The notes beneath the pieces are model-generated. The model searched no databases. It saw only the letters and a list, made by a program, of their open reading frames with translations, and was not told the DNA's origin. From Altererythrobacter epoxidivorans (lineage in GTDB: Bacteria; Pseudomonadota; Alphaproteobacteria; Sphingomonadales; Sphingomonadaceae): DNA of 64,000 nt. Made by a program: the position numbers and the translations under genes. Where the stretch lies: NCBI RefSeq assembly GCF_001281485.1, contig NZ_CP012669.1:434001-498000 (forward strand). The letters are read 5' to 3'. Shown one piece after another: positions 25,212 through 47,390 of the stretch (position 1 is the first letter of the stretch; every line of letters begins with the position of its first letter).

Positions 25212-25227
25212 TTTCCTCGCGCCCCTC

Positions 25228-26439: not shown

Positions 26440-26463
26440 TCTCTCCACTCCTTCAATATTCGA

Positions 26464-30249: not shown

Positions 30250-30299
30250 ACCCGAACCCCTCGCAAAAATCCCCTCTGGAAAGTGTCTTTGACGAAAAA

Positions 30300-30313
30300 G
30301 GTAACCGGTGTCA
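30300..30313 (-). promoter_or_regulatory. LacI-type operator, site 1
   Basis: GGTAACCGGTGTCA is the reverse complement of the exact motif TGACACCGGTTACC. It lies between the divergent FAH-family gene and the LacI gene and could control both, giving autoregulation. The central ACCGGT with partly symmetric flanks is the form expected for a LacI dimer site. Confidence 0.75.
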
Positions 30314-30418
30314 AAATGATTTTTGCGGACAGGTCAGGGGCGAATGTTTGTAGATTTTTGCATTCCTGCGAATGCCGACTAGAACGCGGGCAAGCTTGAA
30401 GGGAGTGGTGGGCAACGC

Positions 30419-31441
30419 ATGGCAAAACAGGGCAAGGCACCGACGATCAACGATGTCGCGCGTGTCGCCGGCGTGTCCAAGAAGACCGTCAGCAGGGTCA
30501 TCAATCGTTCGCCGCTGATCAAGCAGGATACGCGCGAGAAGATCGAATCCGTCATCGCTGAACTCGGCTATGTTCCGAACCCCCAGGCGCGTGCTCTGGC
30601 CCTGCGTCGCAACTTCCTGATCGGGCTGTTGCACGACAATCCGAACGCGCAGACGGTGCTCAATTTCCAGGAGGGCGTGCTCGACGCAATTCGGGATACG
30701 GAGTTTGCGCTGGTGGTCCGCCCGGTCGATCGGCACTCTCCCGAAATGCTCGACGACATTCGCAATTTCCTCGAGCAGCAGCGACTCTACGGCGTCCTGC
30801 TGCTTCCGCCGATCTCGGAAAACGACGAGCTTGCCGCCCTGTGCGAGGAAGTCGGATGCGCATATGTGCGAATGGGTTCCGCCGCCCTCGATGACGATCA
30901 TCACATGGTCGCATCGAATGATCGAGAAATGGTCGAAAGCGCGGTCGATTATTTGGTGGGGCAGGGGCACACGAGGATTGCCATCATCCAGGGGCCGGAA
31001 GGTTTCCGCTCCGCCAAGGAGCGCCGCGAAGGTTTCCTTGGTGCGATGAAGCGGCACGGGCTGGAGGTGCCGAAAGGTTACATGGCGCAGGGCACCTATC
31101 GGTTCAATTCAGGCATATCGGCTGCCGAAGAACTGCTCTCGCAAGAACCCCGCCCGACCGCGATCTTTTCCAGCAATGACGAAATGGCCGCTGGTGCAAT
31201 GCATGCGGCTCGGGCGCGAGCGATTTCCATTCCTGCCGACCTTTCGATCATTGGGTTCGACGATTCCCCGATCGCGGCTCATATCTGGCCTCCGATGACG
31301 ACGGTCGGCTGGCCGATTCGCCAGATGGCGAAGGCGGCCGCGCTGAAGATTGTCGATCCATCGAACGACGAGGCCGAGAAGGCGATATTCCCCGCGCAAC
31401 TGGTTCATCGGTCTTCGGTCGCATCGCCCGCGAAGGATTAA
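30419..31441 (+). CDS. LacI family repressor of the pectin/uronate locus
   Basis: The 340-residue regulator has a LacI helix-turn-helix at residues 7-31 (TINDVARVAGVSKKTVSRVI) with the hinge helix NPQARALALRR near 55-65, followed by a periplasmic-binding-like ligand domain (FLIGLLHDNP to the end with SIIGFDDSP). GGGAG precedes the ATG by 14 bases. Five copies of one palindromic 14-base motif stand before the gene units of the surrounding pectin locus, one of them in its own promoter region, so it most likely represses pectate lyase, receptor, DhuI/KduD/KdgK, UxaA and UxaC units until a breakdown product binds. The inducer may be 2-keto-3-deoxygluconate or a related uronate. Motif and context are seen; inducer and sign of control are inferred. 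Confidence 0.88.
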   Translation: MAKQGKAPTINDVARVAGVSKKTVSRVINRSPLIKQDTREKIESVIAELGYVPNPQARALALRRNFLIGLLHDNPNAQTVLNFQEGVLDAIRDTEFALVVRPVDRHSPEMLDDIRNFLEQQRLYGVLLLPPISENDELAALCEEVGCAYVRMGSAALDDDHHMVASNDREMVESAVDYLVGQGHTRIAIIQGPEGFRSAKERREGFLGAMKRHGLEVPKGYMAQGTYRFNSGISAAEELLSQEPRPTAIFSSNDEMAAGAMHAARARAISIPADLSIIGFDDSPIAAHIWPPMTTVGWPIRQMAKAAALKIVDPSNDEAEKAIFPAQLVHRSSVASPAKD

Positions 31442-31490
31442 TTGCATTGCGTGGTTGAACTCGCCCCGCTTTTGCCGCTATGTCAGTAAA

Positions 31491-31504
31491 TGACACCGGT
31501 TTCC
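31491..31504 (+). promoter_or_regulatory. LacI-type operator, site 2
   Basis: TGACACCGGTTTCC, one change from the main motif, lies 66 bases before the start of the isomerase at 31571 and should control the isomerase-reductase-kinase-esterase unit. Confidence 0.7.
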
Positions 31505-31570
31505 TAAATTGCATTGGACACCGCGAAATTCGAGATTGAAAGTGCCGTTGACGGCCGAAGAGAGGTTTTT

Positions 31571-32209
31571 ATGAAAGTTGCCCTGATCATCGAGAACAGC
31601 CAGGCCGCCAAGGCAGAGATCATCCATGACGCGTTGAGCTCGGTCGCTGGATCGTTCGGCCATGAAGTTCATCACTACGGGATGTATTCGGCAGAAGACG
31701 ATGCATCGCTGACCTATGTGATGAATGGCCTGCTCGCCGGTATCCTGCTCAATTCCAAGGCGGCCGATTTCGTGGTCACCGGATGCGGCACGGGCATGGG
31801 TTCGATGCTGGCGTGCAACTCGATGCCGGGCGTTTTCTGCGGTCTCGTGATCGATCCGACCGACGCGTTCCTGTTCAGCCAGATCAACGATGGTAACTGC
31901 ATGTCGATGCCTTATGCCAAGGGCTTCGGCTGGGCGGCCGAACTGAACCTGCAGGACTGCTATCGCAAGATCTTCGAGAATGAAGGCGGTGCCGGTTACC
32001 CCAAGGAACGCGCCGAGGTCATGGCCAAGAACCGCGGCATCCTGAAGGACCTTAAGGCGGCATCGTGCAACGACATGCTGACCGTACTCAAGAACGTCGA
32101 TCAGGACCTGCTCAAGGCAGCAGTCGCTGGCGAAAAATTCTCCGAACTGTTCTATGCCAATTCGCAGGACGAGGCGATCAGCGAATACCTTCGCGGGATC
32201 ACGGGCTGA
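31571..32209 (+). CDS. RpiB/LacA/LacB-family isomerase, probable unsaturated-uronate ketol-isomerase (DhuI-like)
   Basis: The 212-residue protein belongs to the RpiB/LacAB sugar isomerase fold: MKVALIIENSQAAKAEII at the start, then VVTGCGTGMGSMLACNSMPG in the place of the phosphate or carboxylate loop. Database-style naming would be ribose-5-phosphate isomerase B-like. Its neighbours are an SDR of the KduD type and KdgK, and no KduI gene is present, so the likely role is the isomerisation of 4-deoxy-5-hexosulose uronate to 3-deoxy-2,5-diketo acid, as shown for streptococcal DhuI of the same family. GAGAGG stands before the ATG; the frame is open to 31514 without support. The gene leads the unit 31571-35549, 40 bases before the SDR. 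Confidence 0.8.
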   Translation: MKVALIIENSQAAKAEIIHDALSSVAGSFGHEVHHYGMYSAEDDASLTYVMNGLLAGILLNSKAADFVVTGCGTGMGSMLACNSMPGVFCGLVIDPTDAFLFSQINDGNCMSMPYAKGFGWAAELNLQDCYRKIFENEGGAGYPKERAEVMAKNRGILKDLKAASCNDMLTVLKNVDQDLLKAAVAGEKFSELFYANSQDEAISEYLRGITG

Positions 32210-32249
32210 GCGACCGGGGTAACCCCGGCGCAATGAGCGGGAGAGACAG

Positions 32250-33023
32250 ATGACTTCCAGTCCATTCGACCTGTCGGGTCGCAAGGCGATCGTGACCGGT
32301 GCCAACACCGGAATCGGGCAGGGGATTGCCCTGGCGCTGGCGAAGGCCGGCGCCGACGTTGCGCTCGTCGGGCGGAGCGCGGCAGCCGAAACCGAAAAGA
32401 TGGTGAGCGACACCGGTCGCAAGGCGATACAGATCAAGGCAGACCTCTCCTCGATCGAACCGGTGGGCGATGTCGTCGCCGAAGCTGTCGATCAGCTCGG
32501 CCGCGTGGATATCCTCGTCAACAATGCCGGGATCATCCGGCGCGAAGATGCGCTCGATTTCTCGGAGGAAGACTGGGACGCGGTGGTCGATACCAACCTC
32601 AAGTCGCTTTTCTTCCTGACGCAGGCTGTCGGCCGGCACATGGTCGGCTGGTCGAGCCAGGACGGCGATCGCGGCAAGATCGTCAACATCGCATCGATGC
32701 TGACGTTCCAGGGCGGGATCAGGGTCCCCAGCTACACCGCTTCCAAGAGCGGTGTAGGCGGTCTGACGAAGCTGCTCGCAAACGAGTGGGCTCCCAAGGG
32801 CATCAACGTGAACGCCATCGCCCCCGGCTACATCGCGACGAACAACACCGCTGCCTTGCAGGCTGACGAGACCCGCAATCGCCAGATCATGGAACGTATT
32901 CCCGAAGGGCGCTGGGGTGACCCTGCGGATATCGGTGGTGCGGCGGTATTCCTGTCCAGCAAGGCTGCGGATTATGTCCAGGGCCACATCCTCGCGGTTG
33001 ACGGCGGGTGGCTCGCACGATGA
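32250..33023 (+). CDS. kduD: SDR-family 2-keto-3-deoxy-D-gluconate 5-dehydrogenase (KduD/DhuD type)
   Basis: The 257-residue classical short-chain dehydrogenase has TGANTGIGQGIA for cofactor binding, NNAGIIRR, the catalytic serine region IVNIASML, and Y162-x-x-x-K166 in PSYTASKSG. The segment NNAGIIRREDALDF is characteristic of KduD proteins. It would reduce 3-deoxy-2,5-diketo-gluconate to 2-keto-3-deoxygluconate in the cytoplasm. GGGAGAG lies before the ATG. Its 3' end overlaps the KdgK start by 4 bases (ATGA). Together with the isomerase before it and the kinase after it, it forms the branch for unsaturated uronates freed by pectate lyase. Confidence 0.88.
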   Translation: MTSSPFDLSGRKAIVTGANTGIGQGIALALAKAGADVALVGRSAAAETEKMVSDTGRKAIQIKADLSSIEPVGDVVAEAVDQLGRVDILVNNAGIIRREDALDFSEEDWDAVVDTNLKSLFFLTQAVGRHMVGWSSQDGDRGKIVNIASMLTFQGGIRVPSYTASKSGVGGLTKLLANEWAPKGINVNAIAPGYIATNNTAALQADETRNRQIMERIPEGRWGDPADIGGAAVFLSSKAADYVQGHILAVDGGWLAR

Positions 33024-34045
33024 GCGCCGGGGCCGGGCTCAAGCCGGTCGTCTGTTTCGGCGAGATGCTGCTGCGTCTTTCGCCGCCATCGGGAACACCG
33101 CTCGCCCGGACCGACGCGCTTGCGCTCGATGTGGGTGGGGCCGAAGCCAACGTCGCGATTGCGCTCGCCGGACTCGGCCAGGCTACGCGCATGGCGAGTA
33201 TTTTGCCCGACAACCCGCTTGGCCGACGTGCGCGTGCCGCGCTTGGTGAAGCGGGCGTCGACACGCGTTTTTGCGTCAGCGTGCAGGGGCGTCTGGGGCT
33301 CTATTTCTTCGAGCCGCCGTCCGGACCGATCGGCGGCCGCGTTACCTATGACCGCGCCGGAAGCGCATTCGTGAATGCCTCTCCGGACGATTTCGACTGG
33401 TCGCAAATCCTCGATGGCGCAGGCCTGCTTCATCTTTCCGGAATTACCCCTGCACTGGGGCCCTCGGGCGTCGCGCTCGCTCGCGCAGCCGTAAAAGCGG
33501 CGCGCGAGCAAGAGGTACCGATCTGTTTCGACGGAAATTATCGTTCGAACCTGTGGGAAGGATGGGACAGCGATCCACGCACGATCCTGACCGACCTCGT
33601 GTCGCAGGCGACTGTCCTGATCGGCAATCACAGGGACATCTCGCTCTTGTTGGGGCAGGACTTTTCGGGCGAAGGGCCGGATCGGCGCAGGGAAGCGGCA
33701 GAGGCCGCATTCGCTGCGTTCGACAATCTCGAACTGATCGCATCGACTGCGCGCCATGTCGAAAGCTCGACTGCCCAGCGACTGGCCGCACGCATCGACC
33801 TTCGCGAAAGCCATTGGCAGACTGATGAGGTGCGCATCGATCCGGTCATCGACAGGATTGGGACGGGGGATGCCTTTGCCGCAGGCGTCCTGCTGCGATG
33901 GCTCGAGGGTGGCAGCGCCCAGGAGATGGCGAAGACCGGCCTCTCTCTCGCAGCCATGAAGCACGGGATTGTCGGCGATAATCTGTCGGTTTCGAGAGCG
34001 GAACTCGACGCGTTCGACCCTGCAGGTGCCGATGTCAGTCGCTAA
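33020..34045 (+). CDS. kdgK: 2-keto-3-deoxygluconate kinase
   Basis: The 341-residue PfkB-family sugar kinase starts VVCFGEMLLRLSPPSG and has the ATP/catalytic signature DRIGTGDAFAAG near the C-terminus, where Asp284 is the expected base. KdgK phosphorylates 2-keto-3-deoxygluconate, the product of both uronate branches of this locus, and the product KDPG is then split by Eda, which is not in the window. I take the ATG at 33020 because it overlaps the SDR stop as ATGA and gives the family-typical N-terminus. The esterase gene behind overlaps its end by 14 bases. Confidence 0.9.
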   Translation: MSAGAGLKPVVCFGEMLLRLSPPSGTPLARTDALALDVGGAEANVAIALAGLGQATRMASILPDNPLGRRARAALGEAGVDTRFCVSVQGRLGLYFFEPPSGPIGGRVTYDRAGSAFVNASPDDFDWSQILDGAGLLHLSGITPALGPSGVALARAAVKAAREQEVPICFDGNYRSNLWEGWDSDPRTILTDLVSQATVLIGNHRDISLLLGQDFSGEGPDRRREAAEAAFAAFDNLELIASTARHVESSTAQRLAARIDLRESHWQTDEVRIDPVIDRIGTGDAFAAGVLLRWLEGGSAQEMAKTGLSLAAMKHGIVGDNLSVSRAELDAFDPAGADVSR

Positions 34046-35549
34046 TGGGATTGACCGGCGTACACTGATCGGCGCCGGCATTGCAGGCGGCATCGCGGCG
34101 TCATTTCCAGCCCTGGCTCACGATCTGGCAATGCCGCTCTGCCATGGACCGGTAGACGCGCCTGACGGCTGGTACGAGGCGCGCAGTTGCGATGGTGCAT
34201 GGTCCTACCCACTGATCCGATATGCCCGGGCTAACCGCTTCCAACCACCTGTACCGGTAACTTCGGCGGAGCAGTTAACGGGCAGGTGGAGCGCCATCCC
34301 GGCATGTCCGCAGCCGTCCGACCGATATTCACCAGAAATCGAGGACTGCCATTTCCTGAATGTCTGGACGCCGCGCACCGATGGCGAGCCGCTTCCCGTA
34401 ATGGTCTATTTCCACGGCGGCGCATATTCGAACGGTTCCGTGGGCGATCCGGTAAATGACGGAGCGAAACTGGCAAAGCGCGGCGATGTCGTGGTCGTCA
34501 CGGTCAATCACCGGCTGAATGCTCTCGGTTACCTCTACTTGCCCGAACGCTACCCCGACAGCGGCAACAACGGTCAGCTGGACCTTGTGGCTGCACTGCA
34601 ATGGGTTCAGCGCAACATCGCTGCTTTCGGTGGAGACCCTCGCAATGTCACCGTCTTCGGGCAATCGGGCGGCGGGGCGAAGATTGCGACGCTGATGGCG
34701 ATGCCTGCTGCAGCAGGTCTGTTTCACAAGGCCATCACGATGAGCGGTCAGCAGGTTACCGCCAGCGGCCCGTTGAACGCCGCGAAACGCGCAGAGGCTT
34801 TCCTTGCCGCGCTCGGTGAAGGCGTCGATCCGGCCACCGCCCCGGTCGAGCAATTGATTGCTGCCATGTCCGCGACCGACCCCATCCTTGGCGGAGGTGT
34901 GTACATGGGGCCTGTGCTCGATATGCGGAACCTGCTGCGGCATCCGTTCTGGCCGGACGCAGCGCCGCAATCGAACCACATCCCGATGATGCTGGGCAAT
35001 ACGGTGATGGAAACGCGGGCATTCTATTCGACCGAGAAGCCGCCCATCGCCGGACTGACGATGGACAACCTTGCGGAACGGATCGCGCCGCAGATGCGCG
35101 TCGATATCGAACCCGATTGGGTCGTGGCCCAGTTCCGCGAACGCTATCCGGATGCCGCCGCGCTGGAGCTGTTCCACCGGATCGTGACCGCCGCGCGCAG
35201 CTGGCGCGGGCAGGTCGAAGAAGCTGAAGCCCGGGCAAGCGCCGGGTCACCTGCGGCGGATCGCACCTGGGTCTACCAGCTCGACTTCGAGGACGCGCAA
35301 CATACGGACGACATTGCCTTGTCCTTCGGCACCGTTGTCGCTCCGACCGCAGCGCAACAGGCGATGAGTGACAGTGTGATGGATGCATTCGTGCGTTTTG
35401 CGCGCACCGGCAATCCGGGTTGGCCCACCTATGACCTGGCAAGTCGCAATACGATGGTGTTCGACAACGTCAGTCGGGTCGAGAGCAACCCGAGAGCGTG
35501 GGAGCGCGAACTGTTCTCGCGCGTGCCCTATATCCAGCCCGGCAGCTGA
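34032..35549 (+). CDS. Exported type-B carboxylesterase of the pectin locus (third of three)
   Basis: The 505-residue esterase has a twin-arginine-like signal, DRRTLIGAG then a hydrophobic stretch ending FPALAH, so it probably leaves the cytoplasm folded. Its triad is Ser212 in GQSGGG, Glu327 in VMETRAF and His424 in AQHTDD, with YFHGGAYSNGS for the oxyanion hole. It is closer to the esterase at 12068 than to the one at 4080. It starts inside the end of kdgK and is last in the operator-controlled unit, so it should serve pectin use, perhaps removing methyl, acetyl or feruloyl esters. Type-B carboxylesterases are not standard pectin methylesterases, so the exact bond is open. It converges on the cupin gene. 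Confidence 0.82.
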   Translation: MSVANGIDRRTLIGAGIAGGIAASFPALAHDLAMPLCHGPVDAPDGWYEARSCDGAWSYPLIRYARANRFQPPVPVTSAEQLTGRWSAIPACPQPSDRYSPEIEDCHFLNVWTPRTDGEPLPVMVYFHGGAYSNGSVGDPVNDGAKLAKRGDVVVVTVNHRLNALGYLYLPERYPDSGNNGQLDLVAALQWVQRNIAAFGGDPRNVTVFGQSGGGAKIATLMAMPAAAGLFHKAITMSGQQVTASGPLNAAKRAEAFLAALGEGVDPATAPVEQLIAAMSATDPILGGGVYMGPVLDMRNLLRHPFWPDAAPQSNHIPMMLGNTVMETRAFYSTEKPPIAGLTMDNLAERIAPQMRVDIEPDWVVAQFRERYPDAAALELFHRIVTAARSWRGQVEEAEARASAGSPAADRTWVYQLDFEDAQHTDDIALSFGTVVAPTAAQQAMSDSVMDAFVRFARTGNPGWPTYDLASRNTMVFDNVSRVESNPRAWERELFSRVPYIQPGS

Positions 35550-35570
35550 GCGCTGCGCACAGTTCAGCGC
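35550..35570. terminator. Weak hairpin between convergent esterase 3 and cupin genes
   Basis: GCGCTG at 35550-35555 pairs with CAGCGC at 35565-35570 with a 9-base loop. It overlaps the cupin stop codon and has no clear T tract, so it is only a candidate. Confidence 0.3.
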
Positions 35571-36007
35571 GAAACGGGATAGGCGATGATGATCGAGAGG
35601 GGTTCGTCACCCGTTTGGCGGATACCGACTACGGCATTTTCGTAAAGATAGGCCGCCATGCCGGCCGAGAGTTCCGCTTCGACCCCATCGGACACCACGA
35701 CGCCCGTGCCGGACGTGACGTAATAGACTTCATCATGCGAGATCGGATGTTCTCCGACCGCAGCGCCCACGTCCAAAACGCGGCGACGGAACTCCATCGT
35801 CCGTGGCTGAGGGGCCACATCGCTGATCCGGTATGCGGTGGACATGCCGATGGCGCCATGCGGCGGGGCCTCTCGAACCATGACGTCCCGCTCGTTCACC
35901 ACCACCATGGGCGGCGCTGCCGAAGCCGTCGTTCCAGGTGGTGGAGTGGCCGATGCCGCGCATGCCGAAGTGATAGCGGCGACGAGCGAGGCAAGGAGGA
36001 AACGCAT
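35564..36007 (-). CDS. Exported cupin-domain protein (KdgF-related?)
   Basis: The 147-residue protein begins with a signal sequence MRFLLASLVAAITSACAASA and continues as a single cupin with the first motif around EHPISHDEVYYVTSGTG, which offers two His and a Glu as metal ligands. The signal could be a weak lipobox ending in Cys or a plain signal peptide. Cupins of the KdgF type convert unsaturated uronates to linear ketones, but known ones are cytoplasmic; this one should act in the envelope, beside the pectate lyase. The start ATG shares one base with the lyase stop (TGATG), so the two are coupled. The frame is open upstream into the lyase gene, but those residues have no support. Confidence 0.78.
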   Translation of the reverse strand: MRFLLASLVAAITSACAASATPPPGTTASAAPPMVVVNERDVMVREAPPHGAIGMSTAYRISDVAPQPRTMEFRRRVLDVGAAVGEHPISHDEVYYVTSGTGVVVSDGVEAELSAGMAAYLYENAVVGIRQTGDEPLSIIIAYPVSR

Positions 36008-37347
36008 CACTGGCCGCTCGTGCGCATCAGCCGATCGCGCGGCGAAAGATGCTCTTGTGCCCCTGCCTTCTGACCCGGATAGACCCGCGATTTCGGGGTC
36101 ATGGTGGCGAGGTCCCATGCCTTGGCATCGAAGGGTGCAGCGCTGCTTTCGATAACGGGATAGCCACCGACTTCGCTTTCATCGTCGATGATATCGCCGC
36201 GGCCCTCTGCAATGAAGAATAGTACGCGAATTTCCTCGGCGCCGCGATCCCAGGGACGCGCGCCGGCCGTGGCAAGCACGGTGGTTTCGACATCGCCGCT
36301 CGCAAGAATGTCATATCCATCAAGCGATGCGAGAGGGGCTTCGGATTCGATCAGTTCAGCGCCTGTTTCGCCATAACGGCCAAACATCGGGAGAGGGTTG
36401 CCGTGACGATCGACCGCCCGGTTGTCGCGGCTGTACCAGGCGAGGTCGCCCACACCGCCGAGCATCAGGAAGGGCAAGCCGTCGTCCGTGTCGTTTCCGC
36501 CGCGCATGACATTGCCGACTGCGGTAATTTCGCCGGTCACAGGCTCATGTCCCGCCCACTCGAGATCCATCAGGTTGTAATGCACGGCCCGGTGCTGCGG
36601 GTTATAGATGACGTTATTGACCATGAGGACCTGGGCGCCGCCTTTGACGAGCGGGCTGCGTTCGACATTGTGGGCCCAGATATTGCGATCGAACACGATC
36701 CCGGTCGCATTGTCGTGGACCAGCGAGCCTTTCGAATGTTCGCCCTTGGGGTGGCTCGAATCGGCGAGACCTTCAGCTGCGAGGTTGAGACGGAAAACGA
36801 TGTCGTGACTGGTTCCGGCACGCCATTCCTCGACAGTGTTGCCGGTGAATCGTGGGCCCGATGCCGACATGTTTTCGTCGATCGCCCACATGAAGGTGCA
36901 ATTTTCGATCACCACGCGGGCTGCGGCTGCGGTCGAGAAGGCGTCGGCTTCCCAGCCGCTACGCTTGGCCTGGCCATCGGCGCCCGTGATCACGCGCAGA
37001 TGCTGGAGCTTCACGTCATGGGTTTTGACGTCGATCCCGCCGCGCAAGAGCGTGATGCCGGGGGAAGGGGCCGTCTGCCCCGCGATCGTAACATAGGGTT
37101 CGGCGATCGAGAGGCTGGACCGTTCAAGGTCGATGGCGCCGCCCACTTCGAACACGATCACGCGCTTGCCTTTTTCGGCCAGCGCGGCCGCAAGACTGCC
37201 CGGGCCATCCTTCGCCAAGGTGGTTACCTTGACGATGCGGCCGCCGTTGCCGCCCTGCGTCGGATCTGCCGGATGGGCGAAAACTTGTTGTGGTGCGGAC
37301 ACAACCAGGAGAGCCAATGCTGCCCAAACTGCAAAAAAACCACGCAT
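36007..37347 (-). CDS. Secreted pectate lyase-like protein, right-handed beta-helix
   Basis: The 446-residue protein has a signal peptide ending QQVFAHP and then a repetitive beta-helix body. Residues such as GGNGGRIVKVTTL, GPGSLAAAL, IVFEVGGAIDL, YVTIAGQTAPSPGITL and VKLQHLRVITG follow the layout of PL1-type pectate lyases; EWRAGTSHDIVFR and NIWAHNVERSPLVKGG are also conserved features of the group. It would cut polygalacturonate by beta-elimination outside the inner membrane and make 4,5-unsaturated ends, which suits the DhuI/KduD branch. GGGAGAG stands before the ATG. Two operator copies lie in the 181-base region shared with the divergent TonB receptor. The cupin gene follows directly. 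Confidence 0.85.
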   Translation of the reverse strand: MRGFFAVWAALALLVVSAPQQVFAHPADPTQGGNGGRIVKVTTLAKDGPGSLAAALAEKGKRVIVFEVGGAIDLERSSLSIAEPYVTIAGQTAPSPGITLLRGGIDVKTHDVKLQHLRVITGADGQAKRSGWEADAFSTAAAARVVIENCTFMWAIDENMSASGPRFTGNTVEEWRAGTSHDIVFRLNLAAEGLADSSHPKGEHSKGSLVHDNATGIVFDRNIWAHNVERSPLVKGGAQVLMVNNVIYNPQHRAVHYNLMDLEWAGHEPVTGEITAVGNVMRGGNDTDDGLPFLMLGGVGDLAWYSRDNRAVDRHGNPLPMFGRYGETGAELIESEAPLASLDGYDILASGDVETTVLATAGARPWDRGAEEIRVLFFIAEGRGDIIDDESEVGGYPVIESSAAPFDAKAWDLATMTPKSRVYPGQKAGAQEHLSPRDRLMRTSGQ

Positions 37348-37413
37348 TTCCGTTACTCTCCCGATTTATTTCCTAGTTTCTTGACAGAATGACCGGAGCG
37401 TGGCAACCAATAA

Positions 37414-37427
37414 TGACACCGGTTACC
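37414..37427 (+). promoter_or_regulatory. LacI-type operator, site 3
   Basis: An exact copy of TGACACCGGTTACC lies 67 bases upstream of the pectate lyase start. It is one of two sites, 68 bases apart start to start, in the divergent lyase/receptor promoter region; this spacing could allow looping or independent control of each promoter. Confidence 0.75.
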
Positions 37428-37481
37428 AAAATCGGGGGAGGACATGATGGTGGCGCGGCGCAGTAGCTTTACGACTGCGAA

Positions 37482-37495
37482 GGAAACCGGTGTCA
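37482..37495 (-). promoter_or_regulatory. LacI-type operator, site 4
   Basis: GGAAACCGGTGTCA is the reverse complement of the variant at 31491. It lies 34 bases before the GTG start of the receptor gene, in a position where a repressor would block the promoter or early transcription. Confidence 0.72.
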
Positions 37496-37528
37496 CTCCT
37501 CCCGAAACATCGTAGGGGAGTAGGTTTC

Positions 37529-40276
37529 GTGTCACAGGTATTTCGAGTTTCCCGTTTCAAGTCTGCGCTGCTCGCAAGCAGCGTCGTGTTCATGCCCGCA
37601 GTCGCCATGGCGCAGGATGCGGATGCAGCCGGCACCGTCGCTGAAGACGGCGTGGGCGAATACGATGAAAACGTCATCATCGTTTCCGGCTTCCGCGAAT
37701 CGCTGAACGCTGCTGTCGCAGCGAAGCGCGAAGCGGTTGGCCAGGTCGACGTGATCGTCGCTGAAGACATCGCAAAATTCCCGGACACCAACCTCGCGGA
37801 ATCGCTTCAGCGCATTCCCGGTGTCGCGATTGAACGCGATGCAGGCGAAGGTCGCCAGATCACTGTTCGCGGCCTCGGTGCCCAGTTCACGCGTGTCCGC
37901 GTCAACGGCATGGAAACGATCGCGACCTCGGTCGACGGTGCATCGTTCAACCGCGATCGCGCGTTCGACTTCAACGTCTTCGCATCCGAGCTGTTCAACT
38001 CGATCGTCGTCAACAAGACGGCGTCGGCATCGCTCGATGAAGGTTCGCTTGGTGCGGTCATCGACCTCAACACCGGCAACCCGCTGGCATATGGTGCAGG
38101 GACGAAGGTCGTTGCCACCGTGCAGGGTCGCTACAACGACCTGAACGACGACATTTCGCCGCGCATCGCCGGCCTGTTCGCATGGAACAATGCCGACGAG
38201 ACCTTCGGACTTTCGGCATCGGCTGCATGGTCGAAATACGAAACGCCCGAACTCGGCAACAACTCGGTCCGCTGGGCAAACAATGCCACCTTCCGTTCGG
38301 TCGACGGCGTCAACTGCACCACCAGCCCGGCCGATGTCGGCTGTGTCGAAGTGCGCAATGCCTTCCACCCGCGTATCCCACGCTACGGCCTGGTGAACCA
38401 CGACCGTGAGCGCCTTGGCGCGACCGCAGCTATCCAGTTCCGCCCGAGCGACAGCACCGACATCGAAATCGATGCGCTGTATTCGAACTTCAAGGAAGAT
38501 CGCGACGAATACTGGGGTGAAGTCCTGCTGCGTTCCAACGAGCGCAACATCGACCTTTCCAACTACACGATCGACGGGGACAACAACGTCATCTCGGCCG
38601 ATCTGACCAATGCCTGGATCCGCAACGAGCGTTACCACCGCGAAAGCGAAACCGATTTCTACCAGATTTCGGGCCGCCTCGAGCAGAGCTTCGGCGACAC
38701 CTTCACTGCCACGCTGCAGGGCGGTTTCTCCAAGTCGGATGCCACCATTCCGGTCGAAACCACGATCATCTTCGACGATCGCGACGGCGACTACAGCTAC
38801 GATTATTCCAACATGGATTTCCCGCTGCTGGTCTTCAACACGGACGTCACCGATCCGACGAACTTCCAGCTCGCCGAATTCCGCGATCGTCCGAGCTCGG
38901 TCGAAAACAAGTTCAAGACCGTATCGCTCGATCTCGAGTGGGAACCGGTTGACGGCCTGAAGATTTCGACTGGTCCGTTCTTCCGTCAGTTCGATTACTT
39001 CACCACCAGCGCGCGTCGTGACAGCCAGTATTGTTCGGCCTTCACCTGTGCGACCGGTGCCTATGGCGCGCCCGTTACATCCGACCTCGCTGAGCTGTTC
39101 GAGCTCGGCGATGCCGGTCAGCCCAGCGGCAACACCAACGCATGGGTGGTTCCGGATCTCGATGCGACGACGGCATTCCTCGATCTCTACAACCGCACCG
39201 CAACGACCCAACAGGGCGACGAACGCGGTGTGCGCGAGAAGACCATGGGTGGCTTCTTCCAGACCGATTTCGAGATCGAAACCCCGGTTCGCATGACGGG
39301 TAACTTCGGTGTCCGCTATGCCAAGACGAAGCAGACATCGCAGGGCTTCGTGAGCGGTCAGTATGTCACCATCAAGCGGGACTATGACGACTTCCTGCCG
39401 GCGGTGAACCTGAACATCTTCCCGAGCGATGATTTCATCATCCGCGGTGCGATTGCGCAGGTGGTCACCCGACCTTCGCTCGGCAACCTGACGCCGGGCG
39501 GTTCGGTCGACCAGTTCAACTTCCGCATCACGTCGGGCAACCCGTTCATCGATCCGTATCGTGCATGGAACTACGACGTTTCGCTCGAATACTACTTCGC
39601 TCCGGGTGCGATCGTCTCGCTGGCCGGTTTCATCAAGGACGTGCAGAGCTTCCCGGTTGGCGAATCGCTGCAGATCACCTGGGCACAGAGCGGCTTGCCG
39701 AACTCGCTTCTTACTTCGGGTACGCCGGTCTATGACGCCATCGTCAACGGAACCGATCCGAACCGCGAGTTCGAATTCCGCACCACCACCAATGGCGAAG
39801 GCGCCACGATCAAGGGCGTAGAGCTCGGCCTCAACCTGCCGTTCTCTGCCTTCACCTCGGGTGCGCTTTCGGACTTCGGTGTCCTTGGCAACGTCACTTA
39901 CGTCGACAGCAACCAGGAAGTGAACTTCGGCGGCACGCTTTACGATGCAAGCTTCCCGGGTGTGTCGAAGTATTCGGCCAACGGTACGGTGTACTACGAC
40001 AACGGCCGCTTCTCGGTTCGCGTCTCGGGCGCATATCGTAGCGACTACAACACCGGCAACAGCGGCAACGGCAACTTCCTCGAAGGCTTCGACTCGACCT
40101 TCAACCTGGATGCGTCGATCCGTTACAAGCTGACCGACAAGGTCGAGCTGCTGATCGACGGCAACAACCTGACCGACCAGTATCGTTATCGCTGGACCGA
40201 CGAGTTCGCTCGCCGGAACTACGAAAACAACCACTTCGGTCGGATCATCATGGTCGGTGCCCGTATCGAAATGTGA
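37529..40276 (+). CDS. TonB-dependent receptor of the pectin locus (Caulobacter/Xanthomonas carbohydrate type)
   Basis: The 915-residue receptor has a signal peptide ending PAVAMAQ, then NVIIVSGFRESLNAA as TonB-box region, and a plug with KFPDTNLAESLQRIPGVAI, GRQITVRGLGAQFTRVRVNG and FNVFASELFNSIVVNKTASA. These are the marks of the TIGR01782-type receptors used for complex carbohydrates. The barrel ends FGRIIMVGARIEM. The start is a GTG at 37529 with GGGGAG eight bases before; an in-frame GTG at 37490 lies inside operator site 4 and is unlikely. It should import pectin oligosaccharides across the outer membrane. It is the first gene of a unit that runs to the TRAP transporter, with gaps of 39 bases or less. 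Confidence 0.9.
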   Translation: MSQVFRVSRFKSALLASSVVFMPAVAMAQDADAAGTVAEDGVGEYDENVIIVSGFRESLNAAVAAKREAVGQVDVIVAEDIAKFPDTNLAESLQRIPGVAIERDAGEGRQITVRGLGAQFTRVRVNGMETIATSVDGASFNRDRAFDFNVFASELFNSIVVNKTASASLDEGSLGAVIDLNTGNPLAYGAGTKVVATVQGRYNDLNDDISPRIAGLFAWNNADETFGLSASAAWSKYETPELGNNSVRWANNATFRSVDGVNCTTSPADVGCVEVRNAFHPRIPRYGLVNHDRERLGATAAIQFRPSDSTDIEIDALYSNFKEDRDEYWGEVLLRSNERNIDLSNYTIDGDNNVISADLTNAWIRNERYHRESETDFYQISGRLEQSFGDTFTATLQGGFSKSDATIPVETTIIFDDRDGDYSYDYSNMDFPLLVFNTDVTDPTNFQLAEFRDRPSSVENKFKTVSLDLEWEPVDGLKISTGPFFRQFDYFTTSARRDSQYCSAFTCATGAYGAPVTSDLAELFELGDAGQPSGNTNAWVVPDLDATTAFLDLYNRTATTQQGDERGVREKTMGGFFQTDFEIETPVRMTGNFGVRYAKTKQTSQGFVSGQYVTIKRDYDDFLPAVNLNIFPSDDFIIRGAIAQVVTRPSLGNLTPGGSVDQFNFRITSGNPFIDPYRAWNYDVSLEYYFAPGAIVSLAGFIKDVQSFPVGESLQITWAQSGLPNSLLTSGTPVYDAIVNGTDPNREFEFRTTTNGEGATIKGVELGLNLPFSAFTSGALSDFGVLGNVTYVDSNQEVNFGGTLYDASFPGVSKYSANGTVYYDNGRFSVRVSGAYRSDYNTGNSGNGNFLEGFDSTFNLDASIRYKLTDKVELLIDGNNLTDQYRYRWTDEFARRNYENNHFGRIIMVGARIEM

Positions 40277-40315
40277 TCGGGCTTTCGATCGAATGAATAA
40301 TGAAGGGCCCGCGGA

Positions 40316-41317
40316 ATGAATAGCGATCGCAGATCGGTACTTACCGCGGGCCTGCTTATTTCAGCCCTGGGGGCCGGCAGCGCAGCGGCGCAAACCGCAC
40401 CTCCCATGGCAGACGGGCTTCTCCCGCCCGGGTTGCCCCAACCGACCGAGACGATCGATCTCTGGCCGGATGGGGCGCCCGGGTTTCCTTCGAGCCCACC
40501 CGTTGAAAAGACCACCGAGCGATCGACCGATGCGCTGGTTACCGACCGTGCGGTGCTGGGGATCACCGTTCCTCGCATGGCGGTTTTTCGCCCCGACAGG
40601 CCGAACGGTGCGGCGGTGCTCCTGATCCCGGGCGGCGGCTACAAGCATGTCGTCGTCGACAAGGAAGGTTATGAGATGGCGCGCTGGCTGACGGCGCGCG
40701 GCTTTACCGCCTTCGTCCTTTTTTATCGTTTGCCCTATGACGGCTGGGCCGCCGGTCCCGACGTCTGCCTGTCGGACGCTCAGCGCGCCATGCGCCTGAT
40801 TCGCCACCGCCATGCACAGTTCGCTGTCGATCCCGAGCGCGTAGCCGCGATGGGCTTTTCCGCTGGTGGCCATCTTTGCGCCGACCTCGGCACGCGTTTC
40901 GCAGCGAAAACATATACCAGGACGGATGAAGCCGACGAACTAGGCGCGAAACCGTTCTGCGCGGCACCCATCTATCCGGTCATTTCGATGGCCAGCGGAC
41001 CCGCCCATCCCGGATCGCGAGAGAAATTGCTGGGGTCGGCTCCTCCCTCCGACCTCGTAAAGGCGCATTCCCCGGACAAGAATGTTCCGGAGGATGCGCC
41101 ACCATTCTTCATCCTTCACGCGGAAGACGATGATGTGGTCCCGGTGGAAAATGCCTTGCTGTTGCGCGCTGCGCTGAAGGCGAAGGGAATCTCCGTCGAA
41201 ACGCACCTGTTCGAACATGGCGGTCATGGTTTTGGCCTGCGCAAGGCGATCGGCAAGCCGGTCGCAATCTGGCCGGAGCTCTGGCGCAACTGGACCCGGT
41301 CGATCGGCTTCGCATGA
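40316..41317 (+). CDS. Exported alpha/beta-hydrolase, acetyl-esterase-like
   Basis: The 333-residue protein starts with a twin-arginine-like signal, DRRSVLTAG, ending GSAAAQ. Its core is an alpha/beta-hydrolase with IPGGGYKHVVVDKEG for the oxyanion hole, Ser182 in GFSAGG, Asp272 in HAEDDDVVP and His304 in GGHGFGL. This layout (with a preceding IDLWPDGAPG segment) is that of bacterial acetylxylan/pectin acetyl esterases of the BD-FAE-like group. It would remove acetyl groups from pectin or hemicellulose side chains in the periplasm. It overlaps the GH43 gene behind it by 4 bases (ATGA), which ties the two functions. Specificity for pectin is inferred from the locus. Confidence 0.82.
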   Translation: MNSDRRSVLTAGLLISALGAGSAAAQTAPPMADGLLPPGLPQPTETIDLWPDGAPGFPSSPPVEKTTERSTDALVTDRAVLGITVPRMAVFRPDRPNGAAVLLIPGGGYKHVVVDKEGYEMARWLTARGFTAFVLFYRLPYDGWAAGPDVCLSDAQRAMRLIRHRHAQFAVDPERVAAMGFSAGGHLCADLGTRFAAKTYTRTDEADELGAKPFCAAPIYPVISMASGPAHPGSREKLLGSAPPSDLVKAHSPDKNVPEDAPPFFILHAEDDDVVPVENALLLRAALKAKGISVETHLFEHGGHGFGLRKAIGKPVAIWPELWRNWTRSIGFA

Positions 41318-42939: not shown

Positions 42940-42967
42940 AGTGCGCGGCAGGAGAGGGCGCAAGACA

Positions 42968-43975
42968 ATGAAAATGACAGGCCGGATAGGGCGAAGAGGA
43001 TTCCTGGCAGGCACCGCTGCCATAGGTGCAATGGGTATGCTCGGCGGCTGCGAACGGCGCATGTCCGGGTTGCTGACCAGTGCCGATGCGCATCCGGTAG
43101 ATTATCCGACCAGCAAGGCTGTGTCCTACATGGGCGAACTGCTGGCTGAACGGACGGGCGGACGGCTGGGCATCAAGCTTTATGCCGGCGGCCAGCTCGG
43201 CAGCGAGACTGACACGCTGGAGATCACCAGCTTCGGCGGGCTCGACCTCAACCGCGTCAACCTTGCTCCGCTCAATTCGATGGAGCCGATGACGCTACCG
43301 CTTTCGCTGCCTTTCGTGTTCGATTCGGTCGATCACATGCGGCGCGTAGTGGACAGCGAGATTGGCGACGAAGTGCTTGCCTCGCTGGAACCGCATGGGC
43401 TGGTCGGACTGTGCTTTTACGATTCCGGCGCACGCAGCTTTTACAACAAGGCGCGGCCCATCAATTCCCCTTCCGACATGAAGGGGATGAAGCTGCGCGT
43501 GCCTGCATCCGATCTTTACGTGGCGATGGTCAATGCACTGGGTGCCAACGCAGTGCCGATCTCTTTTGGCGAGATCTACCAGTCGTTGACGCAGGGCGTG
43601 ATTGACGGGGCAGAGAACAACTGGCCGACCCTCGTTAGCGAACGCCATTACGAGGCGATCAATTATTTCAGCCTGACCGAACACCTGCTGACGCCTGAAG
43701 CGCTGGTGATGAGCAAGGCAAGCTGGGATCGCCTCGATGCATCCGATCGAGACCTCGTCGCTCGGACGGCCAAGGAATCGGTGATCAAGATGCGGGAGCT
43801 CTGGGACGCCAAGGTCGAAGAGGCGAAAGCTGCGATTGCGGCCTCCGATGTCGTCGTCAATTCGGTCGACAAGCAGCCGTTTGCCGACCTGATGAAACCG
43901 GTCTGGAGCGAATTCATAACCACGCCGCAGCAACAGTCGATTGTAGAGCGGATTACCGCGATGGGAGGGCAGTAA
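42968..43975 (+). CDS. dctP: TRAP transporter solute-binding protein (DctP family)
   Basis: The 335-residue binding protein has a twin-arginine-like GRRGFLAGT followed by a lipobox LGGC (Cys28), so it may be a lipid-anchored Tat substrate. DctP-family landmarks are ERTGGRLGIKLYAGGQLGSE, the conserved arginine region SPSDMKGMKLRVPASD that binds a carboxylate, and GEIYQSLTQGVIDGAENN. It would hand a uronate to the DctQM membrane pair. The ATG at 42968 has GGAGAGG ten bases before it; a frame open to a GTG at 42941 lacks that site. Genes dctQ and dctM follow at once. The likely ligand is galacturonate or an unsaturated uronate from the operon context. Confidence 0.88.
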   Translation: MKMTGRIGRRGFLAGTAAIGAMGMLGGCERRMSGLLTSADAHPVDYPTSKAVSYMGELLAERTGGRLGIKLYAGGQLGSETDTLEITSFGGLDLNRVNLAPLNSMEPMTLPLSLPFVFDSVDHMRRVVDSEIGDEVLASLEPHGLVGLCFYDSGARSFYNKARPINSPSDMKGMKLRVPASDLYVAMVNALGANAVPISFGEIYQSLTQGVIDGAENNWPTLVSERHYEAINYFSLTEHLLTPEALVMSKASWDRLDASDRDLVARTAKESVIKMRELWDAKVEEAKAAIAASDVVVNSVDKQPFADLMKPVWSEFITTPQQQSIVERITAMGGQ

Positions 43976-43976
43976 G

Positions 43977-44447
43977 ATGGCCCACAGGATCAGCATGTTG
44001 CTGGTGAAACTCGGAGCCCTTGGCCTCGTGGCCATGACAGCGATTATCGGCTGGCAGGTGTTCGGGCGCTTCGTCCTCAATTCCAGCCCCTCCTGGACCG
44101 AACAGGCGTCCCTGATCCTGATGATCTGGTACGTCATGTTTGCTGCGGCAGCCGGCGTTTACGAAGGCTTCCACATCCGCATTGCCCTGCTCGAGGAAAA
44201 GCTCGGCGACCGTGCAGCGCCTGCACGCAGACTGGTCGCGGCCATCGTCATGGTGCTCGGCCTCGTATTGCTCGTTTACGGTGCACAGCTTTGCTGGCTG
44301 GTAAGGGAAAATGTCGTACCATCGCTCGGCATCAGCCGGTCGGTGGCTTATTTCCCGATGCCGGTATCCGGATTGCTGATGGCGCTGTTCGCCTTGCCAA
44401 GGGTTTTCAGCGGCGCGCCCTATCCGGCCCATGAGGAGGAAGCATAA
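43977..44447 (+). CDS. dctQ: TRAP transporter small permease (DctQ family)
   Basis: The 156-residue protein has four hydrophobic segments and the DctQ signature around WTEQASLILMIWYVMFAAAAGVYEGFHI. It joins the binding protein to the large permease in the inner membrane. The ATG begins one base after the dctP stop, and its stop shares one base with the dctM start, so the three are translated together. Confidence 0.88.
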   Translation: MAHRISMLLVKLGALGLVAMTAIIGWQVFGRFVLNSSPSWTEQASLILMIWYVMFAAAAGVYEGFHIRIALLEEKLGDRAAPARRLVAAIVMVLGLVLLVYGAQLCWLVRENVVPSLGISRSVAYFPMPVSGLLMALFALPRVFSGAPYPAHEEEA

Positions 44448-45730
44448 TGGAACTGCTCGTCCTCTTCGGGGTCCTATTCCTCCTGCTCGCGCTGGGTGTA
44501 CCGGTCGGTTACGCCCTGCTCGGATCCGCGCTTTCTTGCTTCGGGGTGATGGGGATACCGCCCATCGTCGCCGTGCAGAGGGTGGCAGCAGGGATCAGCG
44601 TCTTTACGCTCATGGCGATCCCGTTCTTCATCTTCGCCGGCGACCTCATGTATCGCGCAGGTATCGCGGAACGACTGGTCAGGGTGGCCGATGCCGCCGT
44701 CGGGCGCGTGCGCGGCGGCCTCGGACTGGTCGATGTCGGCGCGTCGATGATGTTCGGCGCGGTTTCCGGTTCTGCCATTGCCAGCGCCTCGGCCATCGGG
44801 TCGAGCATGGTCCCGCTGATGAAGGACAAGGGCTATCCCGGCGATTATGCGGTGAACGTGACTGTCACGGCGGCAATCGTGGGCCTTCTCATCCCGCCGT
44901 CCCACAACATGATCATCTATTCGGCGGCATCGGGCATCGGCGTTTCGATCGGTGACCTGTTCGTCGCAGGCGTAATCCCGGGCCTGCTCACCGGCCTGAT
45001 GCTGATGGCGACCGCCTGGATCGTCGCGCGGAGGCGCGCCTTGCCATATGGCGCTTTCCCGGGTTGGCGTGAATTCATGCGGGCTGCGGTGTTTGCCATT
45101 CCCGGCTTGCTTACCGCAGTAATCATCATGGGCGGCATCCTGAGCGGCATTTTCACCCCGACCGAAAGCTCGGCCATCGCCGTTATCTATACCATCCTGG
45201 TCGGTGTGCTCGTTTATCGCAGCCTCGGCTGGACGGCATTCTGGGAAGCTGCCCAGAAATCGGTGCGGACGGCGTCGATGGTGCTGTTCATCATCGCCGC
45301 GGCGACCGCTTTCGGCTTTGCCCTCGCATTGCTCGAAGTGCCCGCCGCGCTGGCATCGCTGATCGGGTTCATTACCGAGAATCCGCTACTGACGCTGCTC
45401 ATCATCAACATCATGCTGCTGGCATTGGGGACCTTCATGGACATGGCCCCGCTGATCGTGATTACCACGCCGATCTTCCTGCCGGTCGCAATGGGGGTCG
45501 GCGTCGATCCGGTCCACTTCGGGATCATCATGATGCTCAATCTGGGCATCGGTCTCGTGACACCGCCGGTGGGTTCGGTCCTGTTCGTGGGCTCTGCCGT
45601 GGGCAAGATCCCCGTGACCACCTTGGTGAAGACGATCTGGCCGTTCTATTTTACGCTGATCGCGGCGCTGATGCTGATCACCTACATCCCAGGCCTGTCG
45701 CTGTGGTTGCCCGGGGTGCTGGCAGAATGA
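44447..45730 (+). CDS. dctM: TRAP transporter large permease (DctM family)
   Basis: The 427-residue protein is the ion-driven transport subunit, with 11-12 membrane helices. DctM landmarks are AIPFFIFAGDLM, MMFGAVSGSAIASASAIGS, GLLIPPSHNMIIYS, FTPTESSAIAVIY and a late GIVTPPVG-like segment (GLVTPPVGSVLFVG). The length is the normal one. GAGGAGG lies before the start inside dctQ. The stop directly abuts the stop of uxaA on the other strand, with no room for a terminator between them. The system should bring monomeric or short uronates into the cytoplasm for UxaC and DhuI. Confidence 0.92.
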   Translation: MELLVLFGVLFLLLALGVPVGYALLGSALSCFGVMGIPPIVAVQRVAAGISVFTLMAIPFFIFAGDLMYRAGIAERLVRVADAAVGRVRGGLGLVDVGASMMFGAVSGSAIASASAIGSSMVPLMKDKGYPGDYAVNVTVTAAIVGLLIPPSHNMIIYSAASGIGVSIGDLFVAGVIPGLLTGLMLMATAWIVARRRALPYGAFPGWREFMRAAVFAIPGLLTAVIIMGGILSGIFTPTESSAIAVIYTILVGVLVYRSLGWTAFWEAAQKSVRTASMVLFIIAAATAFGFALALLEVPAALASLIGFITENPLLTLLIINIMLLALGTFMDMAPLIVITTPIFLPVAMGVGVDPVHFGIIMMLNLGIGLVTPPVGSVLFVGSAVGKIPVTTLVKTIWPFYFTLIAALMLITYIPGLSLWLPGVLAE

Positions 45731-47248
45731 TCAGAGCGTTACGCCGCGCTTCCAGATCGAGATCACGCGCTGGCCCGAACGCTCGGCGCTGGTCTCCTTC
45801 CCGCTGGCAACCTCGAGCAGGTAAGCGGCGAAGTCGTCTGCCACGGCGTCGGGATCTTCCGCCAGCATCCTGCCGGCATCGAAATCGATCCAGCCGCTCT
45901 TGTTATTGGCAAGCTGCGAGTTCGACGAAACCTTGACCGTGGGAACGGGAAAGCCGAGCGGCGTCCCGCGACCTGTCGTGAAAAGGATCATCGTCGCACC
46001 GGCGGCTGCCAGTGCGGTCGATGAGACCGCATCATTGCCGGGTGCTTCGAGCAGGGTCACACCCGGTTTCGAGGCCACGCCGCCGTAATCGATGACGTCG
46101 CTCAGTCGCGCTTGACCCGCTTTCTGTACCGCTCCGAGGGATTTTTCCTCGAGCGTCGTGATCCCGCCCGCGATATTCCCGGGTGAGGGGTTTTCGGAAA
46201 CTGGCTGTCCCTGTTCGAGGAAATAACGCTTGAAGCGATTGAGCAATGCACCTGCGCTTGCGAGTATTTCCGGAGTATCGCTCCGCGCGAAAAGAGCCCT
46301 CTCGGCACCGAAGATTTCGGGGATTTCGGTGAGGATCAATCGACCGTCGCTCGCATCGACACGATTGCTGAACCTGCCCAGCAGGGGGTTGGCGGTAAGG
46401 CCGGAAAGTGCATCCGAACCTCCGCACTTCAGGCCGACGCAAAGAGCCGAAGCGGGCGCCTCGACCCGGGACTGTCTGCCGATCTCGTCGACCAGTTGTG
46501 CAATCAGAGAATGGAGCGCTTCCCTCTCGTCGCCGACTTCCTGCGCACGCATGGTGCGCAATTTGGCGCGGCTGCGCTCGGGGACGGCTTCGACGAGCTG
46601 GTCTAGCTGGTTGCTCTCGCATCCCAGGCCAACGAGGACGACGGCGCCGGCGTTGGGATTGTCGCAAAGCGCGGCGAGCACGGCACGCGTTCCGGAAAGG
46701 TCGTCGCCAAGTTGCGAGCAGCCATGCGGGTGCCCGAAACCGACGATGCCGTCGACATGCCCCGCATGCATTGCGGACGCTTCGCGTGCGACCATCTCAA
46801 CGAGCGGGGAGACGCAGCCGACAGTGGGCAAAACCCAGATTTCATTGCGGGTCGCGTAACGGCCATCGTCGCGGCGGTAACCGAGCCATGTCCCGAGCGG
46901 AGCATCACCGACCCCTTCGTCATGCTTCCTGTCGAACGATGCGTAAGACACTTCGCCCGACAGCGCTGTCTTCAGATTGTGCGAGTGGACGTGTTCGCCC
47001 GTTTCGATCTGCCGGGTCGCAAGGCCGATCTGTTCGCCGTAGCGCAGGACTGCATCGCCTTGTCCGATCGGCGCGAGCGCGAACTTGTGTCCGCGCGGGA
47101 CCGGGTCGACCAATCGGACGATGGCACCCGCAACTTCGACATGCTGCCCGCTGCTCAGGTCCGCCAAAGCGACGGCCACGTTATCGCGTGGGTGGATTTT
47201 CCAGGCAAAAGGGCCACTTTTGACTGCAAGTACTTCCTGATCCGACAT
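45731..47248 (-). CDS. uxaA: Altronate dehydratase
   Basis: The 505-residue enzyme would dehydrate D-altronate to 2-keto-3-deoxygluconate. An N-terminal SAF-like domain (residues about 12-80, with HPRDNVAVALADL) precedes the main UxaA domain with NEIWVLPTVGCV, GFGHPHGCSQLGDD, GLGCESNQ, GLKCGGSDALSGLTANP and NPSPGNIAGGITTLEEKSLGA. Cys and His residues in these stretches bind the metal. Full length matches known UxaA. It is divergent from uxaC, and operator site 5 lies in the shared region, 74 bases before its start. It abuts dctM tail to tail. Confidence 0.92.
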   Translation of the reverse strand: MSDQEVLAVKSGPFAWKIHPRDNVAVALADLSSGQHVEVAGAIVRLVDPVPRGHKFALAPIGQGDAVLRYGEQIGLATRQIETGEHVHSHNLKTALSGEVSYASFDRKHDEGVGDAPLGTWLGYRRDDGRYATRNEIWVLPTVGCVSPLVEMVAREASAMHAGHVDGIVGFGHPHGCSQLGDDLSGTRAVLAALCDNPNAGAVVLVGLGCESNQLDQLVEAVPERSRAKLRTMRAQEVGDEREALHSLIAQLVDEIGRQSRVEAPASALCVGLKCGGSDALSGLTANPLLGRFSNRVDASDGRLILTEIPEIFGAERALFARSDTPEILASAGALLNRFKRYFLEQGQPVSENPSPGNIAGGITTLEEKSLGAVQKAGQARLSDVIDYGGVASKPGVTLLEAPGNDAVSSTALAAAGATMILFTTGRGTPLGFPVPTVKVSSNSQLANNKSGWIDFDAGRMLAEDPDAVADDFAAYLLEVASGKETSAERSGQRVISIWKRGVTL

Positions 47249-47321
47249 TTTTGCGGTCTGCTTTCGTATGCCCGCTCCGGCGCGCTTGATTTAAGGCATC
47301 CGACGCGGCAGATACTCTCTT

Positions 47322-47335
47322 TGACACCGGTTACC
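47322..47335 (+). promoter_or_regulatory. LacI-type operator, site 5
   Basis: An exact copy of TGACACCGGTTACC sits in the 142-base divergent region between uxaA and uxaC, 56 bases before the uxaC start. A single site here could control both arms. Confidence 0.75.
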
Positions 47336-47390
47336 ATAACCTTATCGACAGAACAATCTGCCTTGCTCGGATATTCCGAATGGAGAGAGA

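Follow-up and report, generated by a model that had tools for sequence, protein, structure and literature searches.

The question raised by the locus described here is how its genes for pectin and uronate use are controlled. It lies in a 64,000-nucleotide stretch of Altererythrobacter epoxidivorans DNA (contig NZ_CP012669.1, positions 434,001 to 498,000; this whole stretch is called the window below), in which a 14-base motif recurs at five places and a LacI-family regulator is encoded at 30419. The five sites are very probably the operators of that protein, which would govern one autoregulated local regulon induced by a breakdown intermediate. The original prediction had placed five intergenic sites here, and direct reading of the flanks recovered all five at the expected positions, each between genes (Table 1). 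This includes operator 4 despite a mechanical open reading frame that runs from 37490, because the most likely start of the TonB receptor is the GTG at 37529, with AGGGGAG before it. The predicted distance of 34 to 74 bases before a start is right to within one base for six genes (FAH 50, DhuI 66, pectate lyase 66, TonB receptor 33, UxaA 73 and UxaC 55) and wrong for lacI, whose start is 105 bases from the nearest operator. All five sites have an ACCGGT core with even spacing and a central CG, while the flanks beyond the 14 bp have little in common except A/T richness adjoining the motif.

The strong evidence is the exact whole-genome result, not the loose matches. In the whole genome (2,786,256 bases, one contig) TGACACCGGTTWCC has five exact matches, and all five are in the pectin locus; the scatter over random genome positions that would have told against the original prediction is thus not what is seen, and the sites are confined to one pathway's genes adjoining the regulator. 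A single genome match has one mismatch (24088, inside a 1360-amino-acid mechanical reading frame), and 35 have two, where a reversed-pattern control gives 19 with two or fewer; the 35 may include weaker operators. At up to three mismatches TGACACCGGTTACC has 208 matches in the genome versus 191 for the control, so that loose matches carry no signal. The same search in the window gives eight matches, where 100 shuffles average 3.16 and one of them reaches at least eight; the three further matches, with three mismatches each, lie at 2601, at 32291 inside kduD and at 44035 inside a TRAP small-permease frame, so named from its position between DctP and DctM.

Of more general weight is the distribution of the motif among relatives. 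A family sample of 199 genomes, including that of the window itself, was searched for LacI and for the exact motif, a match of at least 54% identity being taken as a LacI orthologue; 54 genomes have one (in G052 a partial match). The exact motif is present in 53 of these 54 and in 10 of the 145 others (Fisher p about 8e-37, uncorrected for kinship). Among the matches listed, the sites recur in family loci, including Novosphingobium, before FAH, DhuI/KduD, the pair of pectate lyase and TonB-dependent receptor (Pel/TBDR), UxaA and UxaC, with an equivalent of operator 1 in a similar position in most of 30 relatives, and lacI adjoins the sites in most family loci. Co-occurrence, recurrence before the same genes and the adjoining lacI together support the earlier proposal that the motif marks a probable LacI regulon. 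The ten motif genomes without a LacI orthologue include G141, where pel and TonB receptor genes on a short contig have two sites; in four of the five looked at (G115, G133, G142 and G188) a mechanical reading frame encloses the site. G072 has 12 exact sites, nine of them outside the LacI locus, which is more extra copies than in any other genome in the scan. A global regulon in G072 was considered and rejected, all nine outside sites being inside mechanical reading frames with unlike flanks, and they are taken as chance.

Outside the family, a class sample of 190 genomes holds six with a LacI at 48-51% identity, five of which have the exact motif. The site is within 250 bases of lacI in G211, G343, G371 and G296, and in G260 the sites precede KduD and FAH in the locus that holds lacI. 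A single match is also present in each of ten other class-sample genomes that lack such a LacI, which makes the chance rate visible; with the ten family genomes just described, most of whose inspected sites are inside reading frames, they are what can be said for the motif being a matter of chance or of a repeat. We give that explanation practically no credence, since all five exact genome matches are in one locus and show little likeness outside the 14 bp, and it is refuted by this uniqueness together with the co-occurrence of LacI and motif.

Homologues of the regulator are also found in 17 plasmid records (PLSDB), five of them Pseudoalteromonas or Saccharobesus at 40-44% identity, of which three (42-44%) were opened for comparison. 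All three have uronate or pectin genes near the LacI homologue; they resemble the window in these related pathway genes and in the ACCGGT core, and their recognition helix (SKRTVSRVIN) differs by one residue from that of the window LacI (SKKTVSRVIN). Unlike the window, they have perfect palindromes, TGCCACCGGTGGCA, upstream of genes: six in all, two per record, beside imperfect forms.

The regulator is a clear member of the LacI/GalR family, with an N-terminal LacI helix-turn-helix (residues 9-54) and a periplasmic-binding-protein-like domain (Peripla_BP_3, 176-334), PF00356 and PF13377 both scoring well above cut-off. A tetramer tail is unlikely because the protein ends six residues past the ligand domain. 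According to a survey of the family (PMC4052901), its sites have even spacing and a central CG, over 75% of those known lie 30-140 bases upstream, and autoregulation is seen in 72%; the form of the window sites fits this and therefore counts for LacI. The hexuronate groups described there, KdgR, UxaR, UxuR and ExuR, are likewise local regulons beside their regulator with evenly spaced, CG-centered sites, UxaR/UxuR/KdgR being named as a Bacteroides branch. In the explanation that we favor, the window LacI would bind as a dimer to the 14-bp site, centered on the CG of ACCGGT, and would thereby block polymerase at five promoter regions: FAH/lacI, dhuI-kduD-kdgK, pectate lyase, TonB receptor and uxaA/uxaC. 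The repressor would be released by an intermediate of pectin or hexuronate breakdown (our guess is KDG or its 5-keto precursor), and the whole locus would be induced as one autoregulated local regulon.

Several observations weigh against control by this LacI. G091 has a LacI 65% identical, yet no exact site genome-wide and no TGACACCGGT in 20 kb, and G202, with a 49% LacI, has no exact site. Two Asticcacaulis plasmid homologues (47-50%) have a different form, TGACACCGGTATCG, before a TonB receptor. A homodimer would be expected to bind a palindrome, which the operator is not, and for E. coli LacI PMC2978694 reports an inability to bind an evenly spaced half-site mixture derived from O1, which makes the present site more surprising. 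Finally, in G043 and G123 no site within one mismatch stands beside lacI, their exact pair lying about 16 kb off. Sites so placed would suit a different transcription factor acting at the motif, a very improbable explanation given that the motif co-occurs with this LacI, that lacI adjoins the sites in most loci, that the core is of LacI type and that related palindromes lie near the gammaproteobacterial homologues. What is shown directly is that the sites exist, that the genome has them nowhere else and that they are conserved together with regulator and target genes; these comparisons strongly support a local LacI regulon for the use of pectin and uronates.

Of particular interest is the form of the operator. 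The 14-mer consists of ACCGGT flanked by TGAC and by the complement of TWCC (GGWA), so that it is no inverted repeat of like half-sites, TGACACCGGTTACC being palindromic at 8 of 14 positions. This lowers its standing as a typical palindromic operator, not the family membership of the regulator, since the inverted repeat is typical and not universal. Every ACCGGT core was scanned in sixty stretches (six of them picked for carrying the motif), in 80 named loci, the best 80 of 203 (Tsuneonella, Qipengyuania, Erythrobacter, Sphingomonas and others), and in the window, some genomes being shared. Locus genes were detected with 17 queries, and removal of identical stretches left 1252 cores, of which 437 are upstream of a detected locus gene, 448 inside one and 367 neither, these last being left out. 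A TGAC half is present in 383 of the 437 upstream cores versus none of the 448 coding cores (141 loci), and in 152 of 179 versus none of 195 when the sixty stretches and the window are taken alone. The conservation of TWCC in a set of 157 sites was not used as evidence because these had been picked at no more than one mismatch to the full motif.

The partner of TGAC in the 383 operators is GGTA in 165 and GGAA in 137 (GGWA in 302 altogether). TGAC is paired with TGAC in one, versus a mean of 96.1 when halves are re-paired at random (minimum 78 in 2000 shuffles); since the operators were chosen by their TGAC half, this test speaks to TGAC/TGAC, and GGWA/GGWA, counted among all 437 upstream cores, does not occur. 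Both halves are TGNN in 16 of the 383 sites, with the TonB receptor a listed neighbor in 12. The palindromic counterparts of the natural site TGACACCGGTTACC are TGACACCGGTGTCA and GGTAACCGGTTACC. The former is found in four of the 199 family genomes, one of them (G047) with it 4.4 kb from lacI, and also once in L188 before the TonB receptor and in L292 of G260; GGWAACCGGTTWCC is in seven of the 53 genomes with motif and LacI, about 3 kb (G168) and about 8.5 kb (G013) from lacI. By these whole-genome controls the palindromes are rare, though not wholly absent. Four genomes outside the family have pairs of more symmetric sites (TGACACCGGTRNCA type), 34-35 bp apart, next to the gene for the TonB receptor; the enzyme genes of the same genomes have asymmetric sites.

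The original prediction of a binding site is supported by comparison, and what it left unremarked is that the site is asymmetric and points mostly one way. TGAC is on the side away from the locus gene, with TWCC facing the gene, in 324 of the 382 asymmetric sites. The other 58 face no detected locus gene and so weaken a strict rule of orientation; 29 of them adjoin lacI with their direction away from it, perhaps towards genes missed by the 17 queries. In regions shared with lacI, 75 sites face the other gene and three face lacI; of those between Pel and the TonB receptor, 43 point to the receptor and 18 to Pel. In L284, whose coordinates match Niveispirillum cyanobacteriorum, site 4646 faces away from FAH, site 5977 faces lacI, and site 17570 points away from UxaA towards an ABC-transporter-like frame. 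Another site, TGACACCGGTGTAG, faces lacI in Novosphingobium aromaticivorans and in three genomes of one genus, and is perhaps a separate autoregulatory operator.

We put forward, at somewhat less than even confidence, that the operator is a mixed half-site by rule (TGAC plus GGWA, hardly ever a palindrome, TGAC usually upstream), and that a homodimer, or a dimer together with polymerase, may read the DNA directionally across several alphaproteobacterial families, the gammaproteobacterial homologues keeping palindromes. A different explanation is that the asymmetry tunes affinity, the weaker GGWA half lowering it for the sake of inducibility and the direction being historical. SymL, the symmetrised lac operator, is bound more tightly than natural lac O1. 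The recognition-code paper (PMC2978694), which treats palindromes and half-site mixtures, gives O1 as a natural asymmetric case and SymL as synthetic, and this agrees with tuning. A merely weak half should vary more, yet GGWA recurs in most operators before several genes, and the exact form is met again in all but one of the outside genomes with LacI; tuning is accordingly possible, though we would sooner doubt it. It is compatible with LacI control, as is the unlikely proposal that the site is a composite, LacI reading the symmetric part and RNA polymerase (as a -10 element) or a second regulator reading TWCC. For a weak half GGTA/GGAA is rather specific in operators chosen only by core and one TGAC, and this specificity speaks for a composite.

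The promoter words bear on the composite as well. TTGACA stands about 33 bases before 64 sites, TTGC/TTGA 13 before 49, and TTG 7 before 65, and in 78 TTGACA is at the site's own edge only, so that 256 of the 382 fit one of four spacings of a -35-like word; the geometry classes were defined after viewing the alignment, and the counts are therefore descriptive. TACC follows TTGC/TTGA in 47 of the 49, where its TA could be a -10 element, and TTCC/TTCT follows the TTG at 7 bases in 60 of the 65, as a composite would have it. Against it, the asymmetry is unchanged whichever distance the word takes, and unchanged in the 126 sites that fit no geometry. Promoter overlap as the whole cause was rejected as a general account on the same grounds, the varied distances and the sites fitting none; the geometry may explain the variable base W, not the asymmetry. 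If the words are -35 elements, the operator would lie at, between or just after core promoter elements, as for steric repression. Operator 1 shares bases with a consensus promoter match that points to lacI (TTGACG-N17-CAAAAT, 30289-30317, plus strand), and operator 3 is preceded by TTGACA (37381-37386)-N17-CAACCA (37404-37409). A consensus scan found one promoter-like site versus 4.7 expected from shuffles in 30000-48000, so that such matches do not exceed chance there (one versus 0.7 in 27800-30450), and the promoter statements therefore rest on the alignment. Before TonB receptor genes, as at 37381-37409 of the window, GCAA stands beyond a 16-base spacer from TTGACA in 31 of 65 cases; this constant pairing may mark a core promoter whose -10 is of CAA type.

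Table 1. Probable operators, regulator and locus genes of the window, and further sites in relatives
Feature	Position	Strand	Remarks
Operator 1, TGACACCGGTTACC	30300..30313	-	Between FAH gene and lacI; exact motif match
Operator 2, TGACACCGGTTTCC	31491..31504	+	Between lacI and dhuI; motif match
Operator 3, TGACACCGGTTACC	37414..37427	+	Between pectate lyase and TonB receptor genes; exact motif match
Operator 4, TGACACCGGTTTCC	37482..37495	-	33 bases before likely TonB receptor start; oriented towards pectate lyase gene
Operator 5, TGACACCGGTTACC	47322..47335	+	Between uxaA and uxaC; exact motif match
FAH / 2-keto-4-pentenoate hydratase-like protein	29473..30249	-	PF01557 23.1 vs cut-off 23.9 bits; NCBIfam hydratase models below cut-off
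LacI-family regulator, 340 aa	30419..31441	+	Pfam PF00356 E 7e-20, PF13377 E 5.8e-34
RpiB/LacAB-type isomerase, probably DhuI	31571..32209	+	PRK09273 316.7 bits, above cut-off ('hypothetical protein'); DUF3666, LacAB_rpiB
KduD dehydrogenase	32250..33023	+	TIGR01832 396.8 bits, above cut-off
PfkB-type kinase, probably KDG kinase	33008..34045	+	PF00294 E 3e-29; KDG kinase models below cut-off
Pectate lyase (PelZ-like)	36007..37347	-	NF041900 330 bits, below cut-off 840; no Pfam match
TonB-dependent receptor (Xanthomonas-Caulobacter type)	37529..40276	+	TIGR01782 595.6 bits, above cut-off; probable start
UxaA/GarD-type altronate/galactarate dehydratase	45731..47248	-	TIGR03248 245 bits, below cut-off
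UxaC uronate isomerase	47391..48791	+	NF002794 581.8 bits, above cut-off
UxuB/UxaB-type uronate reductase	48788..50158	+	Overlaps uxaC; fructuronate/tagaturonate reductase models, below cut-off
TGACACCGGTRNCA-type pair, L284	11884/11918		
TGACACCGGTRNCA-type pair, L289	4142/4176		
TGACACCGGTRNCA-type pair, L291	11895/11930		
TGACACCGGTRNCA-type pair, L292	3220/3254		
TGACACCGGTGTAG, L294	11956		Site start
TGACACCGGTGTAG, L124	15994		Core position
TGACACCGGTGTAG, L125	3995		Core position
TGACACCGGTGTAG, L126	4033		Core position

The names FAH, kinase, lyase, UxaA and reductase are approximate because their models scored below cut-offs, and the name DhuI is taken from family and neighborhood; the Novosphingobium homologue of the UxaA/GarD-type protein is annotated as altronate dehydratase family. 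Further locus genes, named from Pfam and NCBIfam, are a carboxylesterase, a cupin, a GH43 protein and the TRAP transporter parts DctP and DctM. On the 3' side of FAH and on the same strand (24141-30249, minus, from Pfam) are an acyl-CoA dehydrogenase (27975-29450), an MFS_2 sugar-transporter-type gene and two more acyl-CoA dehydrogenases. Because of this arrangement operator 1 might also govern the acyl-CoA dehydrogenase and MFS_2 genes by read-through. The gap from FAH to the mechanical reading frame of the acyl-CoA dehydrogenase is 22 bases, the Pfam domain begins at residue 70, and the true start may be about 190 bases from FAH; no terminator-like site was seen between the two frames. Not one of them was seen adjoining FAH in the 141 related loci, many of which hold only a few kb there.

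The survey motifs of PMC4052901 are palindromes of inverted repeats, unlike the window operators, and the available text of neither that survey nor the recognition-code work (PMC2978694) describes a regulon with almost only half-site mixtures. E. coli lac O1 is likewise a natural asymmetric LacI-family operator (PMC2978694), but it has an extra central base, whereas the window operators are evenly spaced and their asymmetry recurs before several genes in many genomes. The word 'Sphingomonadales' is absent from the main text of PMC4052901, whose supplements, like RegPrecise, were outside the scope, so that an existing entry is possible. A literature search by the letters of the motif returned, among the matches listed and judged by title, none on a bacterial sugar regulon, and the available parts of PMC1790865 and PMC5263246 have nothing on the motif. 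The window carries the dhuI-kduD gene pair of the type G cluster, which in a survey of 3,550 strains was found only in Sphingomonadaceae and Erythrobacteraceae (main text of PMC12838403, in which the terms 'LacI' and 'regulator' do not appear), and this range fits the named relatives among our best 80 of 203 loci.

Taken as a regulon for the use of pectin and uronates, the system is ordinary; what is unusual is a mixed half-site operator that recurs in several families. The comparisons give a concrete candidate operator and regulon for Sphingomonadaceae and Erythrobacteraceae, including Novosphingobium aromaticivorans DSM 12444 (SARO_RS18440), and raise the question of why a symmetric repressor would keep an asymmetric, mostly directional site.

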